Assembly: GCA_902557145.1 (NCBI GenBank)
Contig: CACDYZ010000001.1
Location: 1-64,000 of the forward strand
Direction: 5' to 3'
DNA length: 64,000 nucleotides
Source: an uncultured Alphaproteobacteria bacterium
Lineage (GTDB): Bacteria > Pseudomonadota > Alphaproteobacteria > HIMB59
Numbering within the stretch: position 1 is the stretch's first letter; every line of letters starts with the position of its first letter. Made by a program: the position numbers and the translations under genes. The notes below the pieces were generated by a model. It was given only the letters and a program-made list of their open reading frames with translations, searched no databases and was not told where the DNA came from. Of this stretch, positions 4,182 through 42,343 are shown piece after piece.

Positions 4182-4278
4182 AGTATCGAGATATTATTCT
4201 TAAATTTAAATAAATACACAATTAGTTATCAATTTGCCTAATTTAACTTAATAATATAAGTAAATAAGATTATTTTAA

Positions 4279-4364
4279 GGCGTTGTGGCGGAATGGTAGA
4301 CGCGCCGGATTCAAAATCCGGTGAGGGCAACTTCGTGAGAGTTCGAGTCTCTCCAGCGCTACCA
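4279..4364 (+). tRNA. tRNA-Leu (anticodon CAA)
   Basis: This is an 86-nt type II tRNA. The acceptor GGCGTTG pairs with CAGCGCT, followed by the TG-GCGGAA D-arm start typical of tRNA-Leu. The anticodon stem CCGGA/TCCGG encloses loop TTCAAAA (anticodon CAA, reading UUG). A long variable arm and GTTCGAGTC T-arm follow, and the 3' CCA is encoded. It lies upstream of the flavin reductase gene. Confidence 0.96.
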
Positions 4365-4378
4365 CTAATAAATAAAAA

Positions 4379-22738: not shown

Positions 22739-25194
<2,456 letters not shown>

Positions 25195-39655: not shown

Positions 39656-40615
39656 AAAAATAGATTTATTCCGTTAATTCTATATTGGTTTAAAAAAAAT
39701 CAAAGAAACTTATATTGGAGAAGAAATAGAAATTTATATCTAACTTATTTATCAGAAATTATGCTTCAACAAACTACTGTGAAAACAGTAGAAAACAAAA
39801 TACTAGAAATAATAAATATTTTTCCAAATTTTAATTCCTTTAAAAATAAAAAATTAGAACAATTGCTCAAAGTTTGGTCAGGTTTAGGTTATTACAACAG
39901 GGCTGTAAATTTATTCAAAGCAGTAACTATTATTAATAAAAAATTTAATGGAGTCTTACCAGATAATAGGGATTCGCTAATTTCTTTACCTGGTGTTGGT
40001 ATATACACTTCAAGTGCAATATTAGCTATAGGCCATAACCAAAAAGCATTCCCTATTGATGTAAATGTAAAAAGATTAGTAGAAAGAATATCTGGAGCTG
40101 AATTTAAAGATAAAGAAATTGAAAGTATATTAAGTTTGGCTTGTAAAAAAAAGATTTCCTATAGAAGTTTAGCTGAGTCTATGATGGATTTTAGTTCAAT
40201 AATTTGTAAAAAAAATAATCCTGATTGTGATATATGTAAATTTTCTAATTTTTGTAAATCAGCTTTTCAAAAATTTGAAAATAATCAAAATACAAAAAAA
40301 ATTAATAAGAAAATAGACTTCTATATATTAAACTCCCCTTTACACATTTGTTTTATAAAAAAACCAAAATTTCAATTTTACAAAAATTTTATCCATTTAC
40401 CCTCAAATTTGGATGAAGAATTTATCTCAAATATAAAATTAAAAAAAAAAGAGAAGATTAAAAGTTTTAAATTTGTAATTACAAATAACCTTTTTCAAGT
40501 TAACGTTTATAAACTAAATCAAAAAAAATTAAAAATTGAAAATACAGTATGGATCGAAAAGATAAAAACAAAAGAACTTGCTTTACCGACATTATTTAAA
40601 AAAATACTTAGCTAA
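39617..40615 (+). CDS. mutY: A/G-specific adenine glycosylase
   Basis: MutY removes adenine mispaired with 8-oxoguanine. The 332-residue protein has the catalytic core SEIMLQQTTVKTV near residue 47, helix-hairpin-helix LPGVGIYTSSAI with downstream FPIDVNVKRLVERISG (catalytic Asp), and the iron-sulfur cysteines CX6CX2CX5C near residues 197-213. A shorter C-terminal MutT-like region is weakly conserved. The only ATG giving a full N-terminus is 39617, inside the divergent dciA gene. The stop shares CTAA with the ccrM stop. Confidence 0.95.
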   Translation: MKSNVIELGEFFHKNRFIPLILYWFKKNQRNLYWRRNRNLYLTYLSEIMLQQTTVKTVENKILEIINIFPNFNSFKNKKLEQLLKVWSGLGYYNRAVNLFKAVTIINKKFNGVLPDNRDSLISLPGVGIYTSSAILAIGHNQKAFPIDVNVKRLVERISGAEFKDKEIESILSLACKKKISYRSLAESMMDFSSIICKKNNPDCDICKFSNFCKSAFQKFENNQNTKKINKKIDFYILNSPLHICFIKKPKFQFYKNFIHLPSNLDEEFISNIKLKKKEKIKSFKFVITNNLFQVNVYKLNQKKLKIENTVWIEKIKTKELALPTLFKKILS

Positions 40616-41676
40616 CCTCTCATTTTTTTTCTTATTATATCTATAGATATTAAATTCTTTTTTTTATCTTCGTAATGCCAGAAATCCCATCCATTAAAAC
40701 TTGATGTCTTATTTACTTTTGCAGCTATTTTATGAATTGATCCTCTATCATTTTTGTATGTTATGCTTCCATCTGGAAGTACGGTAGCTTTATAGTTTTT
40801 GTTATTATTATAAAGTGAAGATCCTGGTTTTAAGTGACCATTATCAATTAAACTTGCGAAAGGTATTTTTTGAACTGGTTTATCTTTTTCATTAACTTCT
40901 AATAAGTTATTTTTAAGAGATTTAATTTTTTTTAATCTTTTTTCAGCTAAATTAAAATAATCTTTATCCTTTTCAAAACCTATATAATTTCTACCTAAAT
41001 ATTTCCCCTCAGCACAAAAACTTGCCGTCCCCGCAAATGGTTCTAAAATTAGATCTCCTTGAATTGACGATTGAAGTATTATTTTTTTCATTAAAGCTAA
41101 AGGTTTTTGGGTAGGGTGTGCTGTTTGGTTTGTTTTATTTTTGATTCTTTCTTTACCTGAACAAATCGGAAAATTCCAAATACTTCTCTCTTGTTTATCT
41201 TCGTTTGCAACTTTTAAAGTGTGATAATTAAATTGGTATTTTGACTTAGGTTTTTTTGAACACCATATAAGAGTTTCATGAGCATTTGTAAGTCTTGTTG
41301 CTCTGAAATTTGGTAAAGGATTTGATTTAGCCCAAATTACATCATTCAAAATCCAAAAGTTTAGATCTTGGAGAATTTTCCCAATTCTAAATATATTGTG
41401 ATAAGACCCTATAATCCATAATCCACCATCTGGTTTTAAAACTCTTTTACACTCGCGTAAATATGAAAGGGTAAATTCATCATAGCTAGCGTAATTATCA
41501 AATTTGTCCCAATCTTGATTTACTCCATTGACAACGGAATGGTTTGGTCTGGTTAAAACTTTATTTAGTTGCAAATTGTAAGGGGGGTCTAAAAAGATTA
41601 AGTCTATAGTATGGTCTTCAACTTTTTCAAATAGATCAATGCAATCACCTAGGTAAAGACTATTTTGTTTTAACAC
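40612..41676 (-). CDS. ccrM: Cell-cycle-regulated GANTC adenine methyltransferase CcrM
   Basis: CcrM methylates adenine in GANTC and controls gene expression over the alphaproteobacterial cell cycle. At 354 residues it has the beta-class order: catalytic DPPYNLQL near residue 31, target-recognition region, then HPTQKP and the SAM motif LEPFAGTASFC near residue 216. The CcrM-specific C-terminal domain (about residues 265-350, PDGSITYKNDRGSIHKIAA) is present, making it CcrM rather than a restriction-linked enzyme. No restriction enzyme is nearby. The start is GTG. Two GANTC sites lie directly upstream. Confidence 0.95.
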   Translation of the reverse strand: MLKQNSLYLGDCIDLFEKVEDHTIDLIFLDPPYNLQLNKVLTRPNHSVVNGVNQDWDKFDNYASYDEFTLSYLRECKRVLKPDGGLWIIGSYHNIFRIGKILQDLNFWILNDVIWAKSNPLPNFRATRLTNAHETLIWCSKKPKSKYQFNYHTLKVANEDKQERSIWNFPICSGKERIKNKTNQTAHPTQKPLALMKKIILQSSIQGDLILEPFAGTASFCAEGKYLGRNYIGFEKDKDYFNLAEKRLKKIKSLKNNLLEVNEKDKPVQKIPFASLIDNGHLKPGSSLYNNNKNYKATVLPDGSITYKNDRGSIHKIAAKVNKTSSFNGWDFWHYEDKKKNLISIDIIRKKMRG

Positions 41677-41680
41677 TATG

Positions 41681-41704
41681 GAATCTTATTACTAATAAAG
41701 AATC
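41681..41704. promoter_or_regulatory. Two GANTC (GAATC) sites just upstream of ccrM
   Basis: GAATC occurs at 41681-41685 and 41700-41704, in the 61-bp spacer before the ccrM GTG at 41676. Methylation of such sites by CcrM itself could feed back on its own promoter, as described for Caulobacter ccrM. I saw no GANTC in the short spacers before mntR, coxB, petA, xseA, the YbjN-like gene or ilvE. Confidence 0.55.
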
Positions 41705-41737
41705 ATGTGTAAAAAAAGCATTGCAGTCTGTTGATAA

Positions 41738-42343
41738 CTAAGTAGATAACTTTTTGATAAGTTTACTTATTGGTTGATAAGTTGTCCGATGAAATCTACT
41801 GACACCATGTGAATAAATAGCATCTAAATGATTTTTAGTTCCATAACCTGCATTTTTATTCCATTGATAAACATTATCTTTTAAGTGAAGTTTGGTGATT
41901 AATTTGTCCCTATATACTTTTGCAATAATAGAAGCTGCAGAGACTTGATTTATTTTATCATCTGCTTTGACTAGGGCTTTTACTTTATAATCCTCCATAC
42001 CATTTGGGATAAACTTCCCATCAATAATGACTGTATCCGTTTTTTTAGATAACAAAATAATTGATTGCTTCATGCATTGCAAAACTACATTGTGAATATT
42101 AAATTTCTCAATAAATTTTTTTTTTCCAACAATAATTTGATAATTAAAATTAAAGCCCCTATTTAATTTGAAATAATTATAAATTTCCTCTCTCTTTTTT
42201 TTATTTATTTTTTTTGAGTCAGTAACATCAAAAGGAAGTACTTCAAAGAAAGAATTTTGAGATCTAAATGCACAAACTATTGCACTTCCAACAAGAGAAC
42301 CTCTGCCAACTTCATCAACACCAACGACATATTCACTCATCAA
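41738..42343 (-). CDS. rnhB: Ribonuclease HII
   Basis: RNase HII cleaves 5' of ribonucleotides embedded in DNA. The 201-residue protein has GVDEVGRGSLVG near residue 7 (catalytic Asp-Glu), VIIDGKFIP near 99, and KADDKINQVSAASIIAKV near 120 (two further acidic ligands). The gene lies between moaB and ccrM. It overlaps the moaB stop by 11 bp. A 61-bp spacer with possible ccrM control sites follows. Confidence 0.97.
   Translation of the reverse strand: MMSEYVVGVDEVGRGSLVGSAIVCAFRSQNSFFEVLPFDVTDSKKINKKKREEIYNYFKLNRGFNFNYQIIVGKKKFIEKFNIHNVVLQCMKQSIILLSKKTDTVIIDGKFIPNGMEDYKVKALVKADDKINQVSAASIIAKVYRDKLITKLHLKDNVYQWNKNAGYGTKNHLDAIYSHGVSRFHRTTYQPISKLIKKLST

Follow-up and report, generated by a model that had tools for sequence, protein, structure and literature searches.

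Paired GANTC sites in the putative core promoter of ccrM in a HIMB59-type alphaproteobacterium suggest methylation-gated control of the methylase gene

Why would the gene for a GANTC methylase carry two GANTC sites directly in front of its own start codon? The question arises in a window of 64,000 nucleotides (the whole stretch of DNA that was analysed) from an uncultured alphaproteobacterium of the HIMB59 group, whose assembly measures 1.19 Mb at 28.6% GC, with uncultured marine single-cell genomes as its closest named relatives. Here, ccrM is encoded on the minus strand with its GTG at 41676, and rnhB is the gene upstream. The 61-bp spacer between them (41677-41737) reads, on the ccrM strand and into the GTG, TTATCAACAGACTGCAATGCTTTTTTTACACAT-GATTC-TTTATTAGTAATAA-GATTC-CATAGTG. 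The original prediction placed GAATC at 41681 and 41700, and these coordinates are right, the word being GATTC on the ccrM strand. The two sites are 19 bp apart and occupy the positions 5-9 and 24-28 bp before the GTG (Table 1). Considered jointly, the comparative data suggest that ccrM has a methylation-gated sigma70/GcrA promoter, in which selection has kept both GANTC sites as parts of the core and a conserved DnaA-box-like element lies upstream. We place the probability of this reading at about 0.68.

Table 1. Features of the ccrM upstream region, in window coordinates
Feature	Position	Strand	Remarks
ccrM, GANTC adenine methyltransferase	40612..41676	-	354 aa, GTG start; N6_N4_Mtase and RAMA domains
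Putative transcription start (first GTG base, leaderless mRNA)	41676..41676	-	7 nt past the -10
Downstream CcrM target GATTC	41681..41685	-	positions -9 to -5; overlaps 3' half of -10 and discriminator
Inferred -10 TAAGAT (sister family AAAGAT)	41683..41688	-	17-bp spacing from sister-family TTGACC; A-11 and T-7 kept
Upstream CcrM target GATTC	41700..41704	-	positions -28 to -24; just 3' of -35
Putative weak -35 TACACA	41706..41711	-	sister family TTGACC in same place, same 7-bp offset to upstream GATTC
Conserved tandem GTTATCTAC-TTA-GTTATCAACAG, DnaA-box-like	41728..41750	-	overlaps rnhB 3' end
rnhB (ribonuclease HII), gene upstream of ccrM	41738..42343	-	PF01351 1.2e-30; synteny retained in relatives

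The assignment of the predicted protein as CcrM, a beta-class N6 methyltransferase with a DPPY motif and a C-terminal RAMA-type domain, is solid. It rests on the Pfam matches (PF01555 at 2e-59, and PF18755, RAMA) and on an end-to-end alignment with the Caulobacter CcrM structure 6PBD (residues 16-362, E 6e-113), in which DPPY is retained. The NCBIfam model for CcrM matches the protein below its cut-off, with 490 of 830 bits. SAM motif I reads EPFAGTAS (or EPFAGTGS) in this genus and is fixed in all 30 of the 30 loci read, as compared to DPFFGTGT in most other alphaproteobacterial CcrM proteins. This altered motif counts against taking the activity of the genus's predicted enzyme for granted.

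One explanation for the pair would be chance in an AT-rich spacer. GANTC occurs 129 times in the 64-kb window, or once per 496 bp, where base composition predicts one per 383, and dinucleotide shuffles of the window contain 185 +/- 12 copies; the word is therefore depleted. This depletion supports, indirectly, the proposal that GANTC is methylated by CcrM in this organism. Only 0.51% of 61-bp segments of the window hold at least two sites, which bears out the earlier claim that two in this spacer exceed expectation. Besides the rnhB-ccrM spacer, a single other spacer of at least 20 bp has two GANTC (4182-4378, 197 bp, with sites at 4308 and 4345), and the arrangement GANTC-N14-GANTC has only two occurrences in the 1.19-Mb assembly. 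Because 15 such spacers were available to choose among, the rarity of the pair within the window is modest evidence and suggestive only.

The decisive sequence evidence that the pair is not accidental is its conservation. The comparison set contained 49 ccrM genes from Alphaproteobacteria that we place as HIMB59-type, 32 of them from genus members in which the region could be read and 17 from a sister family. Aligned across these relatives, as the original prediction had suggested, the spacer keeps its pair: GANTC-N14-GANTC is found in 39 of the 49 genes (24/32 in the genus, 15/17 in the sister family), N13 spacing (18 bp) in three more, all from the genus, and the downstream site in 48 (31/32 and 17/17). 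The sequence between the sites mostly differs between the two families (TTTATTAGTAATAA here, CATATCTGCTTAAA in the sister family), and in the 26 aligned genus members the mean conservation is 0.99 for GANTC columns versus 0.85 for the other spacer columns. With two families sharing the spacing and an analogous arrangement across the class, described below, a chance origin is refuted; its probability is negligible, even with about 0.5% of 61-bp segments holding two sites and 15 spacers to draw from. The central N of the upstream site varies (GATTC/GAATC) among deep members of the genus and within SAR11 while GA-TC stays constant, which fits the target of a GANTC methylase. Neither site is strictly essential, because some relatives have lost one: the upstream site is missing from four genus members (L013, L025, L026 and L137) and the downstream site from one (L008). 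In addition, a third GANTC, about 30 bp beyond the upstream one, is present in all 17 sister-family members (L119-L134, L138).

Next, the sites can be placed relative to a promoter. A canonical -35 is recognisable in the sister family, in the arrangement TTGACC-T-GATTC-N14-GATTC. This element and a 17-bp spacer position the -10 at AAAGAT in that family and at TAAGAT here. In this genus the -35 (TACACA) is weak, and its deep members show no clear one, which makes the -35 assignment uncertain here. Both GANTC sites would thereby sit within the core promoter of ccrM, the conserved GANTC falling inside -40 to +40 of the putative promoter. The start codon is tightly constrained, since an in-frame TAA (in TAAGATTCCATAGTG) immediately 5' of the downstream GATTC rules out any longer protein, so that the GTG is the sole possible start. 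As this GTG also follows only 5 nt after the downstream GATTC, the ccrM mRNA in this genus is probably leaderless, with the GTG at +1. A missing Shine-Dalgarno motif says nothing alone, because few genes in the window have one (5 of 48). The original prediction had likened the sites to those of the Caulobacter ccrM leader. With the start as predicted from sequence, the TAA and the adjoining GTG leave no room for a Caulobacter-like leader location, and the analogy gives way to sites in a putative core promoter whose transcript probably has no leader.

Fixed positions also emerge upstream of ccrM in 87 additional alphaproteobacterial genomes, mostly from different families. At least two GANTC lie within 130 bp upstream of ccrM in 59 of the 87, as compared to 10.8 in shuffles (maximum 17). 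The offset from TTGAC to GANTC is exactly +19 in 37 genomes and +18 or +20 in none, and 39 of the set have a GANTC at +8 to +10; among control TTGAC words elsewhere, 2 of 101 have GANTC at +19. A 200-bp reach yields 40 promoters of the +19 type, whose second site occupies -16 to -12. In all 40, A-11 and T-7, the bases that matter most in a -10, are invariant, and neither base was among the selection criteria. The first in-frame start codon falls at index 35-38 (+1 to +4) in 14 of these 40 promoters, a result that speaks for the assigned start as well as for ccrM mRNAs without a leader. Whole-genome counts of the +19 pattern exceed the reversed control only somewhat (0-22 versus 0-10, forward strand), too little to mark it as a general regulon signature.

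SAR11 uses a different spacing. Across 31 distinct SAR11 promoters, GANTC is found at +8 in 26 and at +20 in 27, with a -10 of TCTAAT at 17 bp in 27. Extra GANTC occur in SAR11 ccrM promoters at offsets -24 and -52 from TTGAC, and an exception in this group, Pelagibacteraceae isolate CP.15 (L048), lacks GANTC throughout the 150 bp read upstream of ccrM. The HIMB59 register of +7/+26 is thus a third, beside +8/+20 in SAR11 and +8 to +10/+19 in the class. The three registers are one theme, with predicted CcrM sites incorporated in the core promoter of ccrM. As some class members (L217, L172 and L103) carry sites at +19 and +26 together (GANTC-AT-GATTC), the HIMB59 +26 site may be the relic of a three-site promoter. 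GANTC is a promoter feature of most ccrM genes examined in the Alphaproteobacteria, so the arrangement is not peculiar to this streamlined genome.

The differing registers also bear on whether the GATTC words are kept merely as promoter sequence, as part of the -10 and of the spacer, with methylation incidental. The downstream GATTC does overlap the -10, such that its GAT is doubly constrained, and the relative that lost this site (L008) retains TAAGAT but not the C. However, the upstream site is in the spacer, which is usually unconstrained, and GANTC recurs at fixed but differing offsets in HIMB59, SAR11 and the rest of the class while its N is free and other bases change. Together with the depletion of GANTC in the window, this makes conservation as promoter sequence alone very unlikely.

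If the sites are read as methylation marks, they could act on RNA polymerase directly, without GcrA, by changing duplex stability or sigma contacts. The HIMB59 GATTC at -9 to -5 lies in the predicted bubble, which would place the downstream N6-methyl-adenines (-8 on the non-template strand, -6 on the template strand) in the melted -10/discriminator; the N of this site is also fixed to T, as demanded by T-7 of the -10. The class as a whole argues for a different reader. In most of its members the second site, at -16 to -12, is fixed although it falls beyond the bubble, and a protein reader fits such a position better. This, and the co-occurrence of GcrA with CcrM, make a direct effect on the polymerase improbable.

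GcrA is the leading candidate for that reader. Its gene is present in this genome (PF07750, 6.6e-32) and in each of 17 near-complete relatives, and the protein matches the Caulobacter structures 7YE1, 5YIU and 5YIX, with its DNA-binding and sigma-binding segments both represented. Most sister-family genomes (G037-G059) contain a second short ORF, an open frame of 76-106 aa whose match to GcrA is confined to the C-terminal, sigma-binding segment (profile 107-152). GcrA is a sigma70 cofactor that drives methylated promoters (PMC7403470), and mutation of promoter GANTC sites lowers the activity of GcrA targets by 60-80% (PMC3667746). Caulobacter promoters with GANTC between the -10 and -35 form a distinct temporal class that is activated (PMC4287350). 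The extended Caulobacter GcrA motif YGAKTCG is unmatched in HIMB59 ccrM promoters, where the upstream site reads TGATTCT or AGATTCT and the downstream site AGATTC[CAT]; the motif was likewise not found for Brevundimonas GcrA (PMC7987155).

Control of ccrM through these elements would involve: initiation by RNA polymerase carrying the housekeeping sigma factor at or beside the GTG, from the poor -10 TAAGAT; one CcrM site fused to that -10 and the other between the -35 and -10; and GcrA, on sigma region 2, reading the N6-methyl marks and thereby altering open-complex formation. The output of ccrM would then follow the methylation state that CcrM sets, in a cycle in which CcrM methylates the sites, passage of the fork leaves them hemimethylated, and new CcrM remethylates them. 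CcrM thus very probably regulates its own production. In this respect the original prediction of methylation-dependent self-control is supported by order-level conservation, fixed positions across the class and the presence of GcrA, although, as judged from sequence, not by way of a leader; the "switch" and "self-timing" that it named would describe predicted behaviour.

The likeliest sign of this control is activation of ccrM by (hemi)methylation, as with Caulobacter GcrA promoters. Activation is favoured because the Caulobacter class with -10/-35 GANTC is activated and because GANTC mutation lowers GcrA targets. The chief rival is shut-off by full methylation, a negative feedback in which the promoter would fire when hemimethylated after the fork and be silenced by full remethylation. 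In Caulobacter, leader GANTC sites are reported to affect the late-cycle shut-off of ccrM transcription. Consistent with such feedback, Caulobacter ccrM is listed as most probably methylation-controlled (PMC3973325) and ctrA P1 is activated by hemimethylation (PMC4287350); homeostasis of an enzyme that is toxic in excess would also favour it. In contrast, a core-promoter position of the sites corresponds to the class that in Caulobacter is associated with activation at 40-60 min (PMC4287350), and GcrA acts as an activator at such promoters. We regard negative feedback as somewhat unlikely and activation as the preferred sign.

In Caulobacter, CtrA activates ccrM and the GANTC sites are located in the transcribed leader. 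Here, a CtrA ortholog was not recognisable in 40 genomes searched with an approximate query: the best matches are 28-33% identical to Caulobacter CtrA, the level of any OmpR-type regulator. Within that scope, CtrA control of this ccrM was set aside, and the Caulobacter analogy loses a second element. A replication input would probably come instead from the DnaA-box-like element. Upstream of the ccrM promoter, GTTATCTACTTAGTTATCAACAG holds two DnaA-box-like repeats, and the AAG TTA TCT codons of rnhB within the tandem are 100% identical. The element is kept as DNA, because it is intact in L026, whose rnhB stops earlier. In the sister family, an inverted copy, CTGTTGATAAC, or a near-copy is positioned just upstream of the ccrM -35. 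GTTATCAACAG occurs twice in this genome (G000), the other exact copy (23229-23239) being inside coxB, and dnaA is 270 kb from ccrM in a single-contig relative (G030, 1.41 Mb). In Brilli et al. 2010 (PMC2877005), predicted DnaA motifs precede ccrM chiefly in cases without CtrA sites. An IHF site was also considered and rejected: a single stretch near the end of rnhB (CTTATCAAAAAGTTA) fits WATCAAN4TTR, and deeper relatives do not conserve it.

A broader reading is more tentative, and we would bet against it in full: that ccrM has a self-methylation-gated promoter at fixed positions throughout the class and that, in HIMB59, the downstream methyl-adenines would lie in the melted -10/discriminator and form part of a leaderless, CtrA-independent methylation memory loop. 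The findings point to direct, promoter-level self-control of the master cell-cycle methylase in most Alphaproteobacteria examined, and such control would extend to abundant ocean bacteria without the CtrA circuit. If this is true, the cell-cycle network in such lineages reduces to DnaA, GcrA and CcrM. GcrA-dependent, methylation-controlled promoters and the probable self-control of Caulobacter ccrM are already known (PMC3973325, PMC3708114). In the openly accessible full texts searched, neither a fixed place for GANTC in the -35/-10 frame of ccrM promoters of the class nor a study of ccrM-promoter GANTC in HIMB59 or SAR11 was found. Likewise not found stated in the literature searched is the testable base-by-base rule that emerges here, namely GANTC at +19 from TTGAC with A-11 and T-7.

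Three known systems offer comparisons. The predicted DnaA-box ccrM promoters of Brilli et al. 2010 (PMC2877005) resemble this one in having a DnaA-like motif upstream and in the absence of CtrA control; that work, unlike the present one, left GANTC control without a conclusion and described no fixed promoter spacing. The Caulobacter GcrA/CcrM sigma70 promoters (mipZ, ftsZ, podJ P2 and ctrA P1) have GANTC in or near the -35/-10; as there, GcrA and CcrM are both encoded here and the site is conserved among relatives. In contrast to those promoters, the target here is ccrM itself, two sites lie 19 bp apart with one over the -10, YGAKTCG is unmatched, and the role of GcrA is read from sequence. 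Finally, Caulobacter ccrM, whose leader sites were reportedly described by Stephens et al. 1995, a study cited in PMC3973325, shares with this locus two CcrM sites by the gene start and likely self-control through methylation. There, the gene is CtrA-activated and the sites are in the leader; here, no CtrA ortholog was found, and the sites would instead belong to the core promoter, the mRNA probably being leaderless.
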